NCBI GenBank assembly: GCA_019695295.1
Contig: JAIBAH010000026.1
Location: forward strand, 1 to 42,831
Direction of reading: 5' to 3'
Length of the DNA: 42,831 nucleotides
From: Bacteroidia bacterium
GTDB taxonomy: Bacteria; Bacteroidota; Bacteroidia; J057
A program made the position numbers and the translations under genes. Under the pieces are notes generated by a model. The model saw only the letters and a program-made list of their open reading frames with translations. It was not told the DNA's origin and made no database searches. The first letter of the stretch is position 1, and every line of letters begins with the position of its first letter. Shown here in pieces: positions 16,290 through 27,526 of the stretch.

Positions 16290-16952
16290 ATGTTTATACA
16301 AAAAAAAGGGGTTATATCAGGGGTTTGTCTTGTTTTATTTTTTACGGTTTTTCTGAATGGTTTTACTCAATCGGTTTTGCCAGAGGGATATCCGAAATTA
16401 ATGGATACGGGGAATCCGGTGGAAGATCACAAAAAATATGATGCTGCTAAGCAAGCATGGATTGCAGCTAATCCCGCTGCATATGCAAAGATAATAGCCG
16501 ATGGGCAAAATTCAAGTACGTCAAGTCTTGTTGAAGTTGTACCGACAACAGATCAGAAGCCATTGCAAATTCCAAGTAATATGCCATCTAATAATCCAAT
16601 AGTTGAGCAAAAAGCGGTAATGATACCGCCCTATAACCCAGGCCAAAATACTGAACAACAAGTAACAACTGTTATGACAATAAACAAACATATGCTTGCA
16701 CCCTCTAAAGAAATAGTATTACCCAACGATTATCCAAAATATGTAGATACAGGTAATACACAACAAGACCTGCAAAAGTACGATATTGCTAAGCAAGCAT
16801 GGATAGCCGCTAATCCGAGTGAATATGCTAAATTAAATGTAAGAAACAGACAACTGATTGACAAACAAGAGTTTGAAAAAATGCCTTCCGAAAAACGACA
16901 ACACATTCTCCAAAACCCCGATTTATATTTTATTGGAGAAGGGCAGAAATAG
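16290..16952 (+). CDS. Secreted protein with two YPKxxDTGN / AKQAWIAANP repeats, function unknown
   Basis: 220 residues with a signal peptide (about 1-27, ending NGFTQ). Two copies of a module of about 39 residues are visible at 30-68 and 144-182. Each has the order LPxxYPKxxDTGN, then Dx2KYDxAKQAWIAANPxxYAK. The linker between them (70-140) is rich in Pro, Asn, Gln and Thr. The C-terminal stretch EFEKMPSEKRQHILQNPDLY may be a third, more distant helical motif. I do not recognise a named family. It is the first gene of the surface-protein locus, 68 bases before the giant repeat protein, with a long hairpin in between. Codon use is AT-rich (many aat, aaa, tta), unlike the later parts of the locus. 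Confidence 0.78.
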   Translation: MFIQKKGVISGVCLVLFFTVFLNGFTQSVLPEGYPKLMDTGNPVEDHKKYDAAKQAWIAANPAAYAKIIADGQNSSTSSLVEVVPTTDQKPLQIPSNMPSNNPIVEQKAVMIPPYNPGQNTEQQVTTVMTINKHMLAPSKEIVLPNDYPKYVDTGNTQQDLQKYDIAKQAWIAANPSEYAKLNVRNRQLIDKQEFEKMPSEKRQHILQNPDLYFIGEGQK

Positions 16953-17020: not shown

Positions 17021-20000
17021 ATGGGGAAAAATATACAAAATATATGTTTAAAAAATAATATTGACTACAAAAGTACAATACAAAAAATAGCTTATAAAAA
17101 ACTAAAAAGTATTTTTGGATTGCTCTTGGTTATATTGATTACATCAGTTAACTCATCAGATGCCTTAGCACAATGTGCTTGTGCAGGTACCAATTATGCT
17201 TCAATTGATGTAAATGGATGGACAGTAGGACAAAGTGGTACTATTACCACCTGCCAATATGGTGGCGAACGTTCAACTATTTTTAATACTGTGGCAGGTG
17301 CAGTTTACAGAATCTCAACGTGTGGTGCAGGTTACGATACCCAATTGTCTATATACACAACGGGTTGTACTTATATTGCCTACAACGACGATAACGGACC
17401 TGCTTGTACAGGTACTGCGGCTTCGGTACAATTTACATCGCCGGGTGGGAACTTATACTCAAAAATGAATCAATATAACTGTGTGACCAATACTACATGT
17501 ACAACAGTTAGCATAACCCTTATTTCGTGTCCTTCGCCAACATTAGGCTCTGTTTCCAATGCAGGTCCTATCAACTTTTGCGATGCAAGTGGTAACTTTA
17601 CTACGCCAGTAACCGTATCTGGACAAACTGGCACGGTGGTGTGGGATTGGGGTAGCAATAACGGCGTTTGGAACAATAACTGGGTTACGGGCAACAGTTC
17701 TGGTGTTTGCTGTTTTCCTAAAAAAACATCGAACAGCGATGGTAATGCTGATAGAATAAGATATAGAGTCCTAAATTGCGGTGTTTCAGTTACCTCTGGT
17801 ACAATTTTAATCGTAAACCGCTACAACGAAGCCCCCACAAGTATGAGTGCCTCTAGCCCATCCTATTGCGCAAGTGCATCCCCGGGTACGATTACACTGA
17901 CGGCAAACTTCCCGTCTAATATTAATATGAACGGGACTGTTCGGTTTTACAGCGGCAGTTGTGGTGGCACTTTGGTCGGATCGGTTTCCCCGGCGGCACT
18001 ATCCAGTACTGCATCCCTAACCATTGCAGCTCCTGCTGCTACTACTACTTATTATGCCCGATATGAGCCGGGAGCAGGGACAGGTTGTGCCAATACAGCC
18101 TGCGTTCAGACAACAGTAACCGTAACCGCTATCCCTAACGATAATTGTGCCAATGCAATCACTATCCCTTCGTTGCCTTATACAAGTGCCGTAATAGGTA
18201 ATACTTGTGCAACCAATGATTTTACGACTTCTGTTTGTGATGGCCCATACAAAAACGTTTGGTGGAAGGTAACCGGTATTTGTGGGACTATGACAGCGAT
18301 TACCTGTACCGGAGGCACCAATTTTGACAATGAAATAGCGGTCTTCACAGGTAGTTGCGGGAGTTTTACCGAAATCGTCTGTAACGATGATAATGGAGCG
18401 GGTTGTACAAGTAATTATGCAGGAGTAAGCTGGACTGCAACCGCCGGAACGGATTATTATATTTCTGTGGGCAGTTACTGGAGCGGAGGAACGACAGGAA
18501 ATTTACAATTGAATGTAACGGCTACTCCCTTTACTGCTTCCGTTGCCCCGACAGGAGCTACAGGAACAACTTCAATCTGTCTTGGAAGCAGTACTACCTT
18601 AACTGTAAGTGGTGGTACTATGGGAACCGGAGCCGTAACACAATGGTACACGGGTTCTTGCGGAGGTACGCTTGTGGGTACGGGGAATTCCATCGCAGTT
18701 TCTCCTACATCTACGACTACTTATTATGTAAGGTATAGTGGTACCTGCAATACCACTACCTGCGCAACGGTAACAGTAAATGTTCAAATACCCCCTGGTA
18801 ATCCTGCTGTATTCGGTACAAACACATGGAATGTATATTGTTATAATGGAAACAGTATTAACCTTGCCGGGTTACAGTATGGAGGGTTTTATACGGAATC
18901 AGGCTTGAGCTATGATAGTCAAACGAAATGGGCAACGGGTGGTACTCCATCCTCGGCTCCAGCTTATGCGGGTTGTCCTATCGGTATAGATAACCATACT
19001 GTAGTTTCCAAACGTCAGGGATTTCCGGTGGGTAATTATGCCCTTTCTATTCCTACCCACGATGATGACATTCGGGTATATATTAACGGAACACAGGTTT
19101 TTGAGCATATAGGGTGCTGTGATGCACATAATAATTTCTGGTGTGGGTATCTTGATGGTACATCTACGATTGAGGTTCGACATGGGGAAGGGGGAGGAGG
19201 CTCTCAGCAAGCCCTTACTTTTACAAGTACCGGTACGCCATCTACCTATGGGGTAAACCAATGGAACATATATACCTATGCTGGTTATAACCTGAATACT
19301 TATTATGGATATGCAGTGAATACTACCACATCCGAGTTTAATCTTGGTGTATTTGGGATGGGAGTTACAGCAAATCCGTCTGTTTTACCGGGTTATATAG
19401 GTTGTAACCCTGGCAATGACAATTGGTCTATCTCTGCAAAACGTCAAGGCTTCCCTTGTGCTACTTATAATGTCAATTTAGTGGCGCATGATGATGAGTA
19501 TATCTTGAATATAGATTATGATGGAAACAGCACAGTAGATTTTACCTCAACAGCAGGATGCTGTAATATTGGCTTAGGTACAAAATGGACAGGGGTATTA
19601 AGCACCAATTCCAAAGTCGAAATTATTCTAAAAGAAGGAGGGGGAGATGCGTATGTGGATATTGATTTTGTAAATATTACAACGGCATTACAGGGCGGTT
19701 CAATTGCAGGAATCTCAAACGGCTTTACTGTCTGCACAGGAACTGACCCTGGTGCTTTTACCAATACTGCAGATGCTTCTGCTGGTTCAAGTTCAGCTTT
19801 TACAGGAGGGGCAGCTTCATATCAGTGGGAAAGCTCTGTTACAAGCAGTTCATCCGGCTTTTCCAATATAGGTGGTGCGACTTCTGCTACCTACGACCCG
19901 GGCGCATTAACACAAACCACATGGTTCAGAAGAAGAGTAACCGATGCCTGCGGCACAGTAGCTTATTCCAATGTCATTCAGATAGTGGTTATTCCTCAAC

Positions 20001-23000
20001 CTATAGTAACTGTTACAGGTAGCCCTGCAAATGGTATCATCTGTGACGGAGGAACATGTACCCTCACTGCCAATGTGAGTGGTGGTACAGGCTGTACTAC
20101 CTATCAATGGCAGTTCTGGAATGGGACTTCTTGGCAAAATACAGGGGCTGGTGCAAGTACATTAGGGGCAGGACCTACCGTTACAAGAGATTACCGGGTA
20201 ATCATTACATGTGCTGCGGGATCGGGTTGTACGGCAACTTCTGCGGCATTTACGATTACTGTAAATCCAGACCCCATCAATCCTACCTTAAATACAAAAA
20301 CGCCGAATACGGCATCGGTTTGTGAAGGTACACCGGTTTCAGCTACTTTCAATGCAGGTACAGGAGGGGTAAGTTGTTCAGACGATTATCAGTACAGGAA
20401 AAATGGCGGTACATGGCTGGCTTATACCCCAGGTACAAATATTACAACGACAACAGGAGATGTTTCGGTAGAAATACAGGGACGAAGAGCCGGTTGTTCC
20501 TCTGGTTTGGGTTGTTCTGCAAATGCTTATACTTTACTTGCTTCATGGACAGTGAATAGCGCTTCTGTAGCTCCTACCGGTGCGAGTGGAACGACCACAA
20601 TTTGTGCCGGAGGCAGTACGACCCTGACTGTTTCGGGCGGGACTATGGGGACGGGAGCCGTAACGCAATGGTACACAGGTTCGTGTGGGGGTACGCTTTT
20701 GGGTACAGGGAATTCCATTACCGTTTCTCCTTCTACTACTACTGCTTATTATGTAAGGTATAGTGGTACCTGCAATACTACTACGTGTGCAACGGTAACG
20801 GTAACGGTGAATCCCCTTCATACTTTATCTCTCACCTCAGCAGCTCCTACCACGAACCAAACTGTTTGTAATGGAGCTGCGATTACCAATATTACTTATG
20901 CTGTGAGCGGTGGCGCAACGGGTGCAGGGGTAACGGGTTTACCCTCGGGAGTAAGTGGCACTTTCAGTGGAGGTACATTGACAATCAGCGGTACCCCCAC
21001 TGTGGATGGTACTTTTACCTATACAGTAACTACAACGGGAAATTCCTGCCCCGCAGTCACAGCAACCGGGACAATTATTGTAAACAGCCTGATAGATTAT
21101 GCAAACTTACAATTTCCGGGTTCGGCTTCTGTTTGTCAGGGGGGGAGCTTAACGGCTTATGGACAAGTATTTGAGCCGGGGGTAACCCCAGCAGCAGGTC
21201 AGGGAGCGGGCTTGGTTGCACAGATTGGTTACAGTACATCCAATACCAATCCGAACACATGGACGAATTGGTCTGCGGCTACTTTCAATGTACAGTCTGG
21301 GAATAATGATGAATTTGCAGGTACTTTAACAGGGCTCGCTCCCGGAACGTATTACTATACCTTCCGTTACTCCCTGAATGGATGTGCGTATCAATATGGT
21401 GGTTTCCCCAATGGATTCTGGAATGGCACTACTCAGATAAGCGGTGTATTAACGGTAAATCCGAATCATACGATAACCTTAACTTCAGCGGGAGCAACAA
21501 CCACTCAAACGCTTTGTCAGAATGTAGCGATAACGAATATCACCTACGCTTTGGGCGGAGGCGCAACCGGTGCAACGGTAACGGGTTTACCTTCAGGAGT
21601 AAACGCAAACGTAGCTGGCGGAGTATTGACCATCAGCGGCTCGCCAACGGTTTCCGGTCCATTCTCTTATTCTATCACGACAACCGGCAATGTTTGTACA
21701 GTAGCGACTGCTTCGGGAACGATAACGGTTAATCCGGTTCATACACTTTCGCTTTCTTCCGGCTCAAATACTCAAACAATTTGTTCCGGCTCATCCATTG
21801 GAAATATTGTGTATGCAGTAGGCGGAGGTGGAACAGGAGCCGGTGTAATGGGTTTGCCTACCGGATTAAGCGGGAACTTCTCAGGCGGGAATTTTACCAT
21901 CAGCGGCACCCCAACTCAGACCGGCACATTTAGTTACACCGTAACTACAACCGGAAACGGATGTACAGTTGCAACGGCAACGGGCAGTATTACAATCAAT
22001 CCTCTTCATACGCTTACTTTATCCTCCGGCTCGACAACGCAAACGGTTTGTCAGAATGTGGCAATCGGCAATATTGTTTACACAGTAGGTGGCGGCGCAA
22101 CTGGCGCAGGCGTAACGGGTTTACCGCCGGGTGTAAGCGGCAATTTCAGTGGGGGAACTTTGACAATCAGCGGCACACCTACCGCAGGAGGCACATTTAC
22201 CTATACCGTAACGACTACGGGTAATAGTTGTCCTGCGGCTACCGCTACAGGAACGATAACGGTAAATAGTTTATTAGATTGGGTAAACTTACAGTTTCCT
22301 GCAAGTACTACGATATGTCCTTCCGGCTCTCTGACTGCTTACGGACGATTATACGAGCCGGGAGTAACCCCTCCTGCGGGTGCTCCTTCAGGGGTAGTAG
22401 TACAAATAGGATACAACTCTTCAAATACCAACCCGAATACCTGGACAAACTGGAGTGCAGCAACCTATAATGCACAATTCGGGAATGATGATGAATATGC
22501 AGGTACAATTTCAGGTCTTTCATCAGGTACCTATTATTATACTTTCCGCTATTCTTTGAATGGATGTGCGTATCAGTATGGAGGGTATAGCGGACCTGGC
22601 GGCGGTATTTGGGATGGTACAACTTATGTAAGTGGAGTACTTACAGTAAATCCTAATCACACCCTCAGTTTAACCTCAGCTGGAGCAACAACCACGCAAA
22701 CGCTTTGTCAGAATGTAGCGATAACGGATATCACCTACGCTTTGGGCGGAGGTGCAACGGGCGCAACGGTAACGGGCTTACCTTCTGGAGTAACCGCAAA
22801 CGTAGCCGGCGGAGTATTGACCATCAGCGGTACGCCAACGGTTTCCGGTCCATTCTCTTATTCTATCACGACAACCGGCAACGCCTGTACAGTAGCTACT
22901 GCTTCCGGAACGATAACGGTTAATCCGGTTCATACACTTTCGCTTTCTTCCGGCTCAAATACTCAAACAATTTGTTCCGGCTCATCCATTGGAAATATTG

Positions 23001-24841
23001 TGTATGCAGTAGGCGGAGGGGGAACAGGAGCCGGTGTAACGGGTTTGCCTACCGGATTAAGCGGGAACTTCTCAGGCGGGAATTTTACCATCAGCGGCAC
23101 CCCAACTCAGACCGGCACATTTAGTTACACTGTAACTACAACCGGAAACGGATGTACAGTTGCAACCGCAACGGGTAGTATTACAATCAATCCTCTTCAT
23201 ACGCTTACTTTATCCTCCGGCTCGACAACGCAAACGGTTTGTCAGAATGTGGCAATCGGCAATATTGTTTACACAGTAGGTGGCGGCGCAACTGGCGCAG
23301 GCGTAACGGGTTTACCGCCGGGTGTAAGCGGCAATTTCAGTGGGGGAACTTTGACAATCAGCGGCACACCTACCGCAGGAGGCACATTTACCTATACCGT
23401 AACGACTACGGGTAATAGTTGTCCTGCGGCTACCGCTACAGGAACGATAACGGTAAATAGTTTATTAGATTGGGTAAACTTACAGTTTCCTGCAAGTACT
23501 ACGATATGTCCTTCCGGCTCTCTGACTGCTTACGGACGATTATACGAGCCGGGAGTAACCCCTCCTGCGGGTGCTCCTTCAGGGGTAGTAGTACAAATAG
23601 GATACAACTCTTCAAATACCAACCCGAATACCTGGACAAACTGGAGTGCAGCAACCTATAATGCACAATTCGGGAATGATGATGAATATGCAGGTACAAT
23701 TTCAGGTCTTTCATCAGGTACCTATTATTATACTTTCCGCTATTCTTTGAATGGATGTGCGTATCAGTATGGAGGGTATAGCGGACCTGGCGGCGGTATT
23801 TGGGATGGTACAACTTATGTAAGTGGAGTACTTACAGTAAATCCTAATCACACCCTCAGTTTAACCTCAGCTGGAGCAACAACCACGCAAACGCTTTGTC
23901 AGAATGTAGCGATAACGGATATCACCTACGCTTTGGGCGGAGGTGCAACGGGCGCAACGGTAACGGGCTTACCTTCTGGAGTAACCGCAAACGTAGCCGG
24001 CGGAGTATTGACCATCAGCGGTACGCCAACGGTTTCCGGTCCATTCTCTTATTCTATCACGACAACCGGCAACGCCTGTACAGTAGCTACTGCTTCCGGA
24101 ACGATAACGGTTAATCCGGTTCATACACTTTCGCTTTCTTCCGGCTCAAATACTCAAACAATTTGTTCCGGCTCATCCATTGGAAATATTGTGTATGCAG
24201 TAGGCGGAGGGGGAACAGGAGCCGGTGTAACGGGTTTGCCTACCGGATTAAGCGGGAACTTCTCAGGCGGGAATTTTACCATCAGCGGCACCCCAACTCA
24301 GACCGGCACATTTAGTTACACCGTAACCACAACCGGAAATGGCTGTACGGTTGCAACTGCGACGGGTAGTATTACAATAGTCCCCGGACTTGTATTAACT
24401 CCAGGTGGGACTAATGTTTCTTGTAATGGCGGAAATAACGGAACCGCTTCCGTTACAGCAACAGGAGGTACCGGAACTTATACTTATTCATGGTGGATTA
24501 ACGGAAGTACAGGCAGCAGTATCAGTGGACTGACAGTGGGTAGCTATACAGTAACGGTAACGAGCGGACCATGCAGCGCAACTTCAAACTATACGGTAAC
24601 AGAACCTCCGGTATTATTGGCTTCTACTTGTATTAAACACGACATTTGTCAGCTAAATCAGGGGGAAATCTCAGTGCAGGTGGCAGGAGGAACTTCTCCT
24701 TATACGATAGCCTGGACCCCTTCAGGAGGAAGCCCCGCCTCACCCATTACGACAAGTAATGCGCAAACCATCATTACAGGTTTAACGGGAGGGGTAACTT
24801 ATACGATAACGGTAACAGATTTTAACGGATGTACTCCATAA
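17021..24841 (+). CDS. Giant repetitive secreted adhesin-like protein (PA14-like, Ig/PKD-like and SprB repeats)
   Basis: 2606 residues. A signal peptide with a long basic N-region ends near 51 (SSDALAQ). In order: a disulfide-rich lectin/prepeptidase-like domain (52-170), Ig-like modules (172-370), a second domain like the first (372-504, starting PNDNCANA), an Ig module (507-588), two PA14-like domains (597-737, 742-887; shared KRQGFP, HDDE and GCC motifs), more Ig modules (890-1264), then Ig/PKD-like units (VTGLPxGV, LTISGTPT, TTTGNxC) interleaved with a YYYTFRYSLNGCAYQYGG module (1267-2454). It ends with SprB repeats (2457-2606). Two units are a recent 397-residue tandem duplication. No C-terminal T9SS domain is visible; the last residues are VTDFNGCTP. 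Expected role by analogy with SprB-type proteins: surface adhesion or gliding. A promoter follows for the next gene, which argues that the stop is real. Confidence 0.9.
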   Translation: MGKNIQNICLKNNIDYKSTIQKIAYKKLKSIFGLLLVILITSVNSSDALAQCACAGTNYASIDVNGWTVGQSGTITTCQYGGERSTIFNTVAGAVYRISTCGAGYDTQLSIYTTGCTYIAYNDDNGPACTGTAASVQFTSPGGNLYSKMNQYNCVTNTTCTTVSITLISCPSPTLGSVSNAGPINFCDASGNFTTPVTVSGQTGTVVWDWGSNNGVWNNNWVTGNSSGVCCFPKKTSNSDGNADRIRYRVLNCGVSVTSGTILIVNRYNEAPTSMSASSPSYCASASPGTITLTANFPSNINMNGTVRFYSGSCGGTLVGSVSPAALSSTASLTIAAPAATTTYYARYEPGAGTGCANTACVQTTVTVTAIPNDNCANAITIPSLPYTSAVIGNTCATNDFTTSVCDGPYKNVWWKVTGICGTMTAITCTGGTNFDNEIAVFTGSCGSFTEIVCNDDNGAGCTSNYAGVSWTATAGTDYYISVGSYWSGGTTGNLQLNVTATPFTASVAPTGATGTTSICLGSSTTLTVSGGTMGTGAVTQWYTGSCGGTLVGTGNSIAVSPTSTTTYYVRYSGTCNTTTCATVTVNVQIPPGNPAVFGTNTWNVYCYNGNSINLAGLQYGGFYTESGLSYDSQTKWATGGTPSSAPAYAGCPIGIDNHTVVSKRQGFPVGNYALSIPTHDDDIRVYINGTQVFEHIGCCDAHNNFWCGYLDGTSTIEVRHGEGGGGSQQALTFTSTGTPSTYGVNQWNIYTYAGYNLNTYYGYAVNTTTSEFNLGVFGMGVTANPSVLPGYIGCNPGNDNWSISAKRQGFPCATYNVNLVAHDDEYILNIDYDGNSTVDFTSTAGCCNIGLGTKWTGVLSTNSKVEIILKEGGGDAYVDIDFVNITTALQGGSIAGISNGFTVCTGTDPGAFTNTADASAGSSSAFTGGAASYQWESSVTSSSSGFSNIGGATSATYDPGALTQTTWFRRRVTDACGTVAYSNVIQIVVIPQPIVTVTGSPANGIICDGGTCTLTANVSGGTGCTTYQWQFWNGTSWQNTGAGASTLGAGPTVTRDYRVIITCAAGSGCTATSAAFTITVNPDPINPTLNTKTPNTASVCEGTPVSATFNAGTGGVSCSDDYQYRKNGGTWLAYTPGTNITTTTGDVSVEIQGRRAGCSSGLGCSANAYTLLASWTVNSASVAPTGASGTTTICAGGSTTLTVSGGTMGTGAVTQWYTGSCGGTLLGTGNSITVSPSTTTAYYVRYSGTCNTTTCATVTVTVNPLHTLSLTSAAPTTNQTVCNGAAITNITYAVSGGATGAGVTGLPSGVSGTFSGGTLTISGTPTVDGTFTYTVTTTGNSCPAVTATGTIIVNSLIDYANLQFPGSASVCQGGSLTAYGQVFEPGVTPAAGQGAGLVAQIGYSTSNTNPNTWTNWSAATFNVQSGNNDEFAGTLTGLAPGTYYYTFRYSLNGCAYQYGGFPNGFWNGTTQISGVLTVNPNHTITLTSAGATTTQTLCQNVAITNITYALGGGATGATVTGLPSGVNANVAGGVLTISGSPTVSGPFSYSITTTGNVCTVATASGTITVNPVHTLSLSSGSNTQTICSGSSIGNIVYAVGGGGTGAGVMGLPTGLSGNFSGGNFTISGTPTQTGTFSYTVTTTGNGCTVATATGSITINPLHTLTLSSGSTTQTVCQNVAIGNIVYTVGGGATGAGVTGLPPGVSGNFSGGTLTISGTPTAGGTFTYTVTTTGNSCPAATATGTITVNSLLDWVNLQFPASTTICPSGSLTAYGRLYEPGVTPPAGAPSGVVVQIGYNSSNTNPNTWTNWSAATYNAQFGNDDEYAGTISGLSSGTYYYTFRYSLNGCAYQYGGYSGPGGGIWDGTTYVSGVLTVNPNHTLSLTSAGATTTQTLCQNVAITDITYALGGGATGATVTGLPSGVTANVAGGVLTISGTPTVSGPFSYSITTTGNACTVATASGTITVNPVHTLSLSSGSNTQTICSGSSIGNIVYAVGGGGTGAGVTGLPTGLSGNFSGGNFTISGTPTQTGTFSYTVTTTGNGCTVATATGSITINPLHTLTLSSGSTTQTVCQNVAIGNIVYTVGGGATGAGVTGLPPGVSGNFSGGTLTISGTPTAGGTFTYTVTTTGNSCPAATATGTITVNSLLDWVNLQFPASTTICPSGSLTAYGRLYEPGVTPPAGAPSGVVVQIGYNSSNTNPNTWTNWSAATYNAQFGNDDEYAGTISGLSSGTYYYTFRYSLNGCAYQYGGYSGPGGGIWDGTTYVSGVLTVNPNHTLSLTSAGATTTQTLCQNVAITDITYALGGGATGATVTGLPSGVTANVAGGVLTISGTPTVSGPFSYSITTTGNACTVATASGTITVNPVHTLSLSSGSNTQTICSGSSIGNIVYAVGGGGTGAGVTGLPTGLSGNFSGGNFTISGTPTQTGTFSYTVTTTGNGCTVATATGSITIVPGLVLTPGGTNVSCNGGNNGTASVTATGGTGTYTYSWWINGSTGSSISGLTVGSYTVTVTSGPCSATSNYTVTEPPVLLASTCIKHDICQLNQGEISVQVAGGTSPYTIAWTPSGGSPASPITTSNAQTIITGLTGGVTYTITVTDFNGCTP
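20563..20812 (+). repeat. Second copy of a dispersed Ig-module coding repeat
   Basis: This segment encodes an Ig-like module (VAPTGASGTT, then TVSGGTMGTGAVTQWYTGSC) nearly identical in protein to that at 18541-18785 about 2 kb upstream, but with many synonymous base differences. It is therefore an older duplication than the 1191-bp tandem repeat further on. Confidence 0.75.
21730..24111 (+). repeat. Two tandem 1191-bp direct repeats, near-identical
   Basis: Unit 1 is 21730-22920 and unit 2 is 22921-24111, an exact offset of 1191 bases (397 codons, in frame). By eye only about five base differences separate them, all in the first 270 bases. A third partial copy continues at 24112 to about 24340 before diverging. 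Upstream of 21730 the similarity continues but is weaker, so the units grew from older homologous modules. Each unit encodes three Ig/PKD-like modules plus one YYYTFRYSLNG module. Confidence 0.93.
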
Positions 24842-24857
24842 TATAAAAAATTATTTT

Positions 24858-24865
24858 TATCTTTG
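24858..24865 (+). promoter_or_regulatory. -7 box (TATCTTTG) for the 258-residue SprB-like gene
   Basis: TATCTTTG matches TAnnTTTG, 17 bases after the stop of the giant gene and 37 bases before the next ATG. It gives the small gene its own transcription start. Confidence 0.7.
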
Positions 24866-24901
24866 ACAAATTTTAAATTCATTTATTAAACATTAATTTT
24901 T

Positions 24902-25678
24902 ATGAAAAGGATTTTATTTTTCGCATTGTTTTTAGGGGGAGTATTCTTCTCTCTTAATGTTCAGGCGCAATTAGCTGCTTGTCCTCCGGGTCCAGGTTGG
25001 GTTGCAAACACAGGTATGAGTGCTACTATTGTTGGTTCTTCTACAGGGTTGCCTTTTAGTATTACGGCAGTAGCAAATACTCCTTACAATGGTTTTGGGG
25101 TAAGTTGTGCACTTGCATCTACGGGTACTAATATGAATGGTAGCGTAACGGCTACAATTACAGGTGGTTCTTCTCCGTTTACTTACAACCTTACGGGTGG
25201 ATCAGCTCAATCTAATACGGGTGTTGCAGGTACAACCAACACATTCAGTGGTCTCTTTGGCGCAAATACCAACTCTGCTGCCAATACTTATTCTGTAAAT
25301 GCGGTTGACTTGAATGGTTGTACAGCGGCAATGTCCGGAAACGTAAACGTTACAGCTCCACCCGATTTGATTGCAGGAACCTGTATGACAGCTGACTTGT
25401 GTCAGACCAATAACGCACAGGTTCAAGTGAGTGCAGCTGGTGGAGCAATTGGGGGTGCAACTCCTGGTTACAACGTAGCCTGGTCTTCAGTAGCAAACTC
25501 TCCTTTTGCAGGTCCTCCCGCAGCAGGTCTTGGAGGCCCTACGGCTCCTGGAACAAACCCATCTCCTTATGTTAATGCAATTGCTACAAGTGGTGGTGCA
25601 ATTCTTGTAACAGGCTTAAGCGGTAACAGTACTTACTCTTTCGTAGTAACTGACGACAATGGTTGTATTGTACAATAA
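24902..25678 (+). CDS. Small secreted SprB-like repeat protein without T9SS tail
   Basis: 258 residues with a clear signal peptide (MKRILFFALFLGGVFFSLNVQAQ). The mature protein is two SprB-like beta modules: about 50-150 (GSVTATITGGSSPFTYNL, ending VDLNGCTAAM) and 152-258 (PPDLIAGTCMTADLCQ, ending VVTDDNGCIVQ). The second aligns with the last 76 residues of the giant protein upstream (PPVLLASTCIKHDICQ to VTDFNGCTP), sharing the paired Cys near its start and the final GC. No T9SS sorting domain follows the last Cys. It has its own promoter and a downstream terminator, so it may be expressed at a different, possibly higher, level than its neighbours. The role is unknown; a surface or filament subunit is one inference. 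Confidence 0.85.
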   Translation: MKRILFFALFLGGVFFSLNVQAQLAACPPGPGWVANTGMSATIVGSSTGLPFSITAVANTPYNGFGVSCALASTGTNMNGSVTATITGGSSPFTYNLTGGSAQSNTGVAGTTNTFSGLFGANTNSAANTYSVNAVDLNGCTAAMSGNVNVTAPPDLIAGTCMTADLCQTNNAQVQVSAAGGAIGGATPGYNVAWSSVANSPFAGPPAAGLGGPTAPGTNPSPYVNAIATSGGAILVTGLSGNSTYSFVVTDDNGCIVQ

Positions 25679-25686
25679 TTTTTTTG

Positions 25687-25727
25687 GCTGATGCGGGGCG
25701 GGGAAACTCCTCCCCCCATCGGTTTTT
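25687..25727 (+). terminator. GC-rich terminator hairpin between the 258- and 591-residue protein genes
   Basis: CTGATG at 25688-25693 pairs with CATCGG at 25717-25722 (one G-T pair), extended by G-rich and C-rich arms, and is followed by TTTTT. It lies just after the stop at 25678, so the following gene probably depends on read-through or an unseen promoter. Confidence 0.72.
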
Positions 25728-25750: not shown

Positions 25751-27526
25751 ATGTTGAGGAAAGAGACGTTACTGAAAATTTATCTGATAGTTGCAGGGTT
25801 ATTAATATCCCCCTTGCTCATCGCACAAAGCTGTACAGGACCTTTATCGGTAAACATACCGGGTTCAGGAACGGCAATGCCTCTTGCTATTCTGCCGTCG
25901 AGTACCGTACAGAATCTTACCTGTTCAGGGGTCGCTGACGGAGGAATTACAGTAAATGTAAACGGCGGAACTCTGGGATACACCTATTCCTGGTCAGATA
26001 ATCCGGCGATTAACTCGAATATCCGTACGGGTTTAGCCGCAGGTGCTTATACGTGTTGGGTTACTGATGGAAATGGCTGTACTCAGCAACAAATATTTAA
26101 TATCAGTGGAGTCCCTGTAGCACTTACTGCTTCCTCAAACTCACCTTTATGCACCGGGGCAACCCTGAATCTTAATGCTACAGGTTCCAATACGGGTAAT
26201 TTTGTCTGGACAAGCCCGGGTGGAGCAACCTATCCGGTTCAGAATGCTTCTATTCCTGCAGCTACTCCTTTTCATTCAGGGGCATGGAGTGTTAACTGGA
26301 CATCCGCAACGAATCCATCCTGTACCGCAACTCAGTCTGTCAATGTGTTTGTCGGGCCGATTAGTTTATTTGCCACACCCGACCCTATAGACAGCACATT
26401 AGTGCATTTTACTGTAAGTAATTGTACAGCACCCTATGTCGTTTACTGGAGACCCCTCCAAACCGGTACTGTCTGGCTGAACCAAAATATGGCTTCAAAT
26501 ACAACGTCAGTGGGTGGCTTACAGCCGGCAACCACCTATGTGGCTTATGCTGTAGATGCCAATGGAGCAACTACATCGATCATTTATTTCACAACCGGGG
26601 GAGTGCCTTTCTGCGGTCAGGCCCCTACGCTGACGGCATTACGATCCTGTGATAAGATTTTTACTGATTGGTCAGGAGGGAATATATTAAATTCGGGAGG
26701 AAGCCCCTACGGTCAGTATGCAGTACGGATTCGGAAGATTTCCCCTGTAATTGGGCCTACATCAAGTACTTATACAGCAAATCTGAGCCACGTATTTACA
26801 GTTACTCCTGCGAATTTTGGTTCAACATACGAAGTTACAGTAAGTGGAATGTGTGATAATCAATATTCTATTGTAAGCCCACCGGTTTACATAACGGCTA
26901 CCGACCCCCGTCCGAATCAACCCACAAACCTGACATTTTCCACAAGTTGTACCAGTTTAAGTAAAACGATTACGGTAAACTGGACTCCTCCTTCAAACGG
27001 ACTGGCCTTAAGTTATAGGGTAATATTCAAGAATGCGTCGAATGGAACCACTTTTGCCAATATTGCTACTTCACTGACAACAGTCACTAAAACCGTTGCT
27101 GCAAATGCTACCTATGAAATCTGGGTAGTACCGATAGGGTGTAGCAACCTGCAGGGGACTCATTCCCTTCACTATAATGTGACAGCTTGTTCAGGAGTCG
27201 TCACCCCGGTTATTCGTACTCAAAATCCGGATTTGGAAGAAGAGTCTGAGCTCATTGAAGAACTTCTGCCTGAATCCACTCTTTCAGTTTATCCTAACCC
27301 CAATAACGGAACCTTTACCGTGGCAATGTCTGATATTTTAGGTAACGTTGCAGCTATTGAGGTTGTAAATATTCTGGGTCAGGTGGTATATACCGCTGAA
27401 ACAGAGGTTGAAAACGGAAATCTGAAGCACGAGATCAAATTAGACGAGCAACTCTCTCAGGGTTCCTATCTGGTAAAAGTAACGACTCCTCAGGAGAGCT
27501 ATCAGACCAAGATTATCAAATTCTAA
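25751..27526 (+). CDS. Secreted SprB/Ig/FN3-like surface protein with T9SS type A sorting domain
   Basis: 591 residues. A signal peptide (about 1-26, ending SPLLIAQ) is followed by one SprB repeat (about 52-115, NGGTLGYTYSW, ending VTDGNGC), an Ig-like module (118-205), then beta-sandwich modules resembling fibronectin type III (about 208-490, e.g. SYRVIFKNASNGTTF). An acidic linker (EEESELIEELLPE) leads to a type A T9SS domain (about 515-591: LSVYPNPNNGTF, NILGQVVY, ending YQTKIIKF). It is the only one of the four proteins in this locus with a recognisable T9SS tail. It could be the cell-surface anchor for the two tail-less SprB-like neighbours, but that is inference. A strong terminator follows. 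Confidence 0.88.
   Translation: MLRKETLLKIYLIVAGLLISPLLIAQSCTGPLSVNIPGSGTAMPLAILPSSTVQNLTCSGVADGGITVNVNGGTLGYTYSWSDNPAINSNIRTGLAAGAYTCWVTDGNGCTQQQIFNISGVPVALTASSNSPLCTGATLNLNATGSNTGNFVWTSPGGATYPVQNASIPAATPFHSGAWSVNWTSATNPSCTATQSVNVFVGPISLFATPDPIDSTLVHFTVSNCTAPYVVYWRPLQTGTVWLNQNMASNTTSVGGLQPATTYVAYAVDANGATTSIIYFTTGGVPFCGQAPTLTALRSCDKIFTDWSGGNILNSGGSPYGQYAVRIRKISPVIGPTSSTYTANLSHVFTVTPANFGSTYEVTVSGMCDNQYSIVSPPVYITATDPRPNQPTNLTFSTSCTSLSKTITVNWTPPSNGLALSYRVIFKNASNGTTFANIATSLTTVTKTVAANATYEIWVVPIGCSNLQGTHSLHYNVTACSGVVTPVIRTQNPDLEEESELIEELLPESTLSVYPNPNNGTFTVAMSDILGNVAAIEVVNILGQVVYTAETEVENGNLKHEIKLDEQLSQGSYLVKVTTPQESYQTKIIKF

Follow-up and report, generated by a model that had tools for sequence, protein, structure and literature searches.

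According to two papers (PMC11285876; PMC10994853), T9SS cargo must itself carry a C-terminal domain, and the classes of this domain are type A, type B and a narrow type C (PMC10202324). PorP-like carriers provide the anchor for cargo of type B (PMC9143113). In the T9SS machinery, SprF or PorG is disulfide-linked to GldK, and permanent intermolecular disulfides among periplasmic proteins are otherwise almost unknown (PMC12635249). The described T9SS signals are domains of these three types, and the usual annotation of T9SS substrates relies on them. No account of tail-less proteins ending in an SprB repeat was found in the literature.

The window is the whole stretch of DNA that was analysed (42,831 nucleotides; contig C35 of genome G000) and belongs to a Bacteroidota assembly of 4.9 Mb in 223 contigs. 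It contains three successive genes on the + strand, which encode proteins of 2606, 258 and 591 aa, each with a signal-peptide-like start. The features of this region are the following (positions in the window):

17021..24841, + strand: 2606-aa giant repeat protein; its signal-peptide-like start is followed by Ig_7-like repeats, a single ordinary SprB repeat and the C-terminal module; without known sorting tail
24389..24604, + strand: ordinary SprB repeat, the penultimate domain of the giant protein (PF13573, 44.8 bits, above the cut-off)
24605..24838, + strand: SprB-type module with three cysteines (Cys 2537, 2543 and 2604) at the C-terminus of the giant protein (residues 2529-2606, 78 aa)
24902..25678, + strand: 258-aa two-domain protein with a signal peptide; codon adaptation higher than the ribosomal mean; no sorting tail of a known kind
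25133..25204, + strand: weak SprB-like repeat, the first in the 258-aa protein (core match, 21.8 bits, under the cut-off)
25358..25675, + strand: SprB-type module with three cysteines (Cys 161, 167 and 255) at the C-terminus of the 258-aa protein (106 aa; about 28 inserted loop residues)
25686..25724, + strand: G+C-rich hairpin with a U run behind it, resembling a terminator, directly 3' of the 258-aa gene (-26.9 kcal/mol, z -4.1)
25751..27526, + strand: 591-aa protein with an SprB repeat, fn3 domains and a type A sorting tail
27287..27517, + strand: type A T9SS sorting domain of the 591-aa protein (PF18962/TIGR04183; TIGR04183 49 bits)

Just 5' of the giant gene, at 16290-16952, a 220-aa secreted-looking protein is encoded, in which the motif YPKxxDTGNxxxDxxKYDxAKQAWIAANPxxYAK occurs twice.

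The genome encodes SprA and at least 150 type A plus 32 type B tails (at least 180 tailed proteins). All complete SprB proteins inspected were tailed except the giant and the 258-aa protein; complete SprB-repeat ORFs which had been retrieved for want of a listed tail do have one, and several others run off their contigs. The preliminary description had found no recognisable tail on the giant and the 258-aa protein and a type A tail on the product of the next gene. Both statements held: in the former two proteins, the Pfam and NCBIfam searches gave no match to a sorting tail at E ≤ 1, be it type A (TIGR04183/PF18962), type B (TIGR04131) or type C (NF033708), and the 591-aa protein was matched by TIGR04183. 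A lipoprotein was also considered and rejected, as no lipobox (PROSITE-type pattern) is present at the signal peptide of either protein; the only lipobox-pattern match in the 258-aa protein is at Cys69, far from the signal peptide. Pfam recognised no PorP/SprF-like carrier gene in the window. When the module was compared with the tails of the same genome using hhalign, the probability was 22% for type A, over 21 columns only, and 0.5% for type B.

The C-terminal sequence of the giant protein is PPVLLASTCIKHDICQLNQGEISVQVAGGTSPYTIAWTPSGGSPASPITTSNAQTIITGLTGGVTYTITVTDFNGCTP. This module and that of the 258-aa protein share 34% identity over 103 columns with an E of 9e-15 (BLASTP, one single comparison). 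The local score of the pair is 160, compared to 32 ± 6 in 2000 shuffles (maximum 70); 384 real internal SprB repeats gave a mean of 57 ± 13 and at best 114. The likeness of the two modules exceeds chance. The existence of two related C-terminal modules, which had been proposed from the letters of the sequence, is thereby borne out, and the ORFs and their ends are as described. The proposed lengths of 76 and 107 residues lie within counting error of the 78 and 106 aa determined here; the proposed start at 24391 has to be corrected, since it belongs to the preceding ordinary SprB repeat and the module of the giant protein begins at 24605. The motif listed for the pair is present, but its GG-Y-W core and the final NGC/Cys are mostly generic SprB consensus.

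Against a profile built from the modules of the giant protein and of the congener KLAP112 (see below) only, the module of the 258-aa protein reached 28 bits and rank 49, which is due to its approximately 28 inserted loop residues. With the loops shortened for scoring, it obtained 70 bits, compared to 41 bits for the top internal repeat. In a tree of 49 repeats, the modules of the giant protein and KLAP112 join (100/98), whereas the module of the 258-aa protein sits by internal repeats of another genome, apart from that of the giant protein. Constraining the three modules into one group was not rejected (p-AU 0.46). Based on the cysteine signature and the pairwise score, the two modules of the window are likely of common origin, which is not established by the tree.

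Both terminal modules are SprB-type Ig-like repeats. The module of the giant protein matches PF13573 with 24.4 bits, not reaching the curated cut-off of 28 bits, and that of the 258-aa protein was unlisted in the PF13573 search; judged by alignment, they are divergent relatives placed near the SprB repeat family. The GG, Y, W, Y and D-x-N-G-C positions and the cysteine pair 15/76 are present in the terminal modules and common to the aligned internal repeats, in which G29 is conserved to 97%, Y33 to 87%, W37 to 91% and C76 to 99.6%. A third cysteine at position 9 (TC-x5-CQ) occurs in 3/3 terminal modules versus 1/407 internal repeats, counting those internal repeats in which the alignment column of position 9 is filled. 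The 258-aa protein has six cysteines, and its extra Cys161 could pair with Cys27. For the module of the giant protein, an Ig-like sandwich was predicted with a mean pLDDT of 84. When this model was compared with the PDB, all matches were to generic Ig domains (Z about 7; Foldseek E > 0.1); no T9SS sorting domain was among the matches listed. The model of the 258-aa protein has a mean pLDDT of 70 and a weak N-terminus. Searched by sequence, the SprB-type profiles extend to a protein of solved structure, GhpA, the grappling hook protein of Aureispira.

The search with a profile of the terminal module covered 295 genomes from the class, the family's full set of 13 and 395 from the phylum; a scan for conserved peptide patterns extended over 84,980 species genomes. 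The sole further member found in these searches is a module in the MAG KLAP112 of the same genus (G002), where a gene on contig CAUJFT010000229.1 ends with ...ALLASTCYKNDLCQLNQGELSVQVTGGTAPYTISWAPPGGTPASPITTSAAQTIISGLAGGTTYTITVTDTNGCNP-stop. The three-cysteine sub-family consists of three copies in two species of one genus; all of them are strictly C-terminal, with the stop 0-3 residues past the final cysteine, and two of the three are neighbours. In the retrieved loci, 1888 SprB-type domains were marked by the profile and, besides the copies of the three members, only a 10-bit partial match lies near a stop. The preliminary description had made a sorting role dependent on whether the module is usually internal or terminal. 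This question has two answers: generic SprB repeats are internal, and each of the three copies of the three-cysteine sub-family stands strictly at the C-terminus. SprA was found in 13 of the 13 genomes of the family and the sub-family is confined to one genus, hence there is no T9SS-negative contrast.

At the DNA level, the pattern VTDxNGCxx-stop was searched in 395 class genomes, and the giant gene is the only genuine reading frame among the matches. The other match, in genome G175, was rejected as a further member, as its in-frame stop is located just ahead of a type A tail. This locus (L164, contig C25 of G175, 1501-1839) has an in-frame TGA between an SprB-like end (VTDANGCSA) and a complete type A tail and is a stop-interrupted T9SS substrate. 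The pattern VTDxNGC plus one residue plus stop gave no further genuine case in 247 class genomes; a match in genome G253 was discarded since it is non-coding. Proteins finishing at an SprB repeat are very rare.

The module of KLAP112 is 77% identical to that of the giant protein at the amino acid level and has its stop at the same residue, whereas the repeats before the module differ. In the same genome pair, SprA reaches 91% identity and triosephosphate isomerase 73%, which gives the scale. The dN between the two modules is 0.16 with dS being saturated; judged from this comparison, purifying selection acts on the module. Gene order gave no basis for comparison with the congener or the family, as either the contigs stop in a ferredoxin gene or the order is not preserved.

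Our favoured, though tentative, reading is that the shared ending may be a C-terminal targeting or anchoring element; the proteins would accordingly be exported and lie on the surface, and they may be recognised by the T9SS and have a disulfide partner. The module occupies the place where T9SS substrates normally have the sorting domain, and a targeting or anchoring element is favoured because the terminal module is conserved while the other repeats vary. In one Bacteroidota genus, an SprB-type Ig-like repeat would thus have become fixed as the C-terminal module of exported repeat proteins. After Sec export, the module would fold last and could serve as a targeting or anchoring element in one of two ways. 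Either the export machinery of the outer membrane would recognise it in place of a type A, B or C domain, or the module might attach the protein to a partner in the outer membrane or the proteins to each other, in which case the third cysteine could be free for a covalent link. A secretion or assembly signal had already been suggested in the preliminary description, whose interpretation is partly supported; the strict C-terminal position allows for such a signal. The predicted generic Ig sandwich without specific sequence similarity to a sorting domain is evidence against the targeting reading. Further points against it are the small number of members (three sequences from two species, two of them adjacent), the failure of Pfam to recognise a dedicated PorP/SprF-like carrier in the window, the tree, which does not unite the two modules of the window, and the possible pairing of Cys161 with Cys27 in the 258-aa protein. 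In a more far-reaching version, which is unlikely, a passenger repeat would have given rise to a new, lineage-specific class of sorting or anchoring signal of the T9SS, namely the terminal SprB repeat with three cysteines, and a disulfide would perhaps hold this signal to its carrier.

Taken singly, any protein in which an ordinary repeat has remained as the last domain would have a similar appearance. The main rival, which is possible but somewhat more doubtful, accordingly holds that an ordinary SprB repeat is merely last, that there is no special targeting module and that the extra cysteine just stabilises the exposed last domain; the proteins would stay periplasmic or exit by lysis, vesicles or an unknown route. 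The sequence clearly belongs to the SprB repeat family (PF13573, 24.4 bits) and has a generic Ig-like fold, the two modules of the window need not have a single origin, and an extra disulfide is a plausible need of a lone last domain. It is less easily reconciled with this explanation that the patterns searched in 395 and in 247 class genomes brought up no other genuine SprB-ended protein, and that the module is kept between species while the adjoining repeats are not.

Truncation or an assembly artefact, by which a sorting domain was lost or the sequence mis-joined in a repeat-rich draft, is very improbable. The assembly is fragmented and of metagenome type (223 contigs), the giant gene has a 2.3-kb duplication at 91% inside, and in the similar pattern match of G175 an in-frame stop stands immediately ahead of a type A tail; but the same ending at the same residue is present in the independent assembly of another species, KLAP112, by which the artefact reading is already largely refuted. 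Moreover, no remnant of a sorting domain was found 3' of the stops in the giant, the 258-aa and the KLAP112 genes, and the purifying selection indicated for the module likewise speaks against loss or mis-joining. The duplication just mentioned lies at 20909-24378 in the window (91% DNA identity) together with another copy at 82%, and recombination or mis-assembly is likely in this stretch. Contig C14 of the same genome (L176, 7936-11172) encodes a paralogue of the giant protein, its domains being 58-65% identical; the contig end falls inside the penultimate SprB repeat, where the terminal module would come next.

The hairpin 3' of the 258-aa stop has a folding energy of -26.9 kcal/mol (z -4.1) and was not listed by a simple terminator scan. 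Codon adaptation of the 258-aa gene is 0.767, the top of the tested set, with a mean of 0.716 for the ribosomal region and 0.653 for the 591-aa gene, which suggests that the 258-aa gene may be strongly expressed, separately from the 591-aa gene. A codon adaptation above the ribosomal-region mean also suggests a very abundant surface or secreted protein. That the tail-less proteins are exported or held as a complex by the neighbouring type A 591-aa protein, the second proposal of the preliminary description, is the least probable explanation of all, and despite the adjacent genes on the same strand and the SprB-type repeats in all three proteins it is weak because of the terminator-like hairpin between the 258-aa and 591-aa genes and the lack of a tailed neighbour in KLAP112, where the next gene is convergent and outer-membrane-protein-like; the lower codon adaptation of the 591-aa gene (0.65 versus 0.77) and the C-terminal domain which the T9SS is said to need on the cargo itself (PMC11285876; PMC10994853) point the same way. 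The convergent gene of KLAP112 (L084, 736-2349) resembles an outer-membrane (FadL-like) protein by reading alone.

If a plain repeat can become a terminal signal, current predictions would miss tail-less surface proteins of Bacteroidota, and a true sorting role would show a route from an Ig-like passenger domain to a sorting domain. Should the repeat only cap the proteins, it would still be a clean example of a specialised end piece of repeat-built surface proteins.

Among the known systems, the type A sorting domain of the T9SS shares with the module the C-terminal place on an exported protein, the Ig-like beta sandwich and a similar size, but there is no profile match at E ≤ 1 and profile comparison gives 22% over 21 columns. 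Type B domains (TIGR04131) are likewise found on giant SprB-repeat proteins, which they anchor to a PorP/SprF-like carrier; the module does not match them and the window is without a recognised PorP/SprF-like gene. Type C (NF033708, ChiA-like) is a precedent for further narrow classes of T9SS tails (PMC10202324), although the two tail-less proteins have no match to it at E ≤ 1. SprB itself has a type B domain at its end, unlike the tail-less giant and 258-aa proteins. The SprB repeat (PF13573), which occurs in gliding adhesins and further surface proteins of Bacteroidota, has the same core motif, the cysteines 15/76, the PPxL linker and the Ig-like fold in common with the terminal modules; ordinary SprB repeats are internal, whereas the terminal modules are strictly C-terminal, carry the third cysteine at position 9 and have longer loops.
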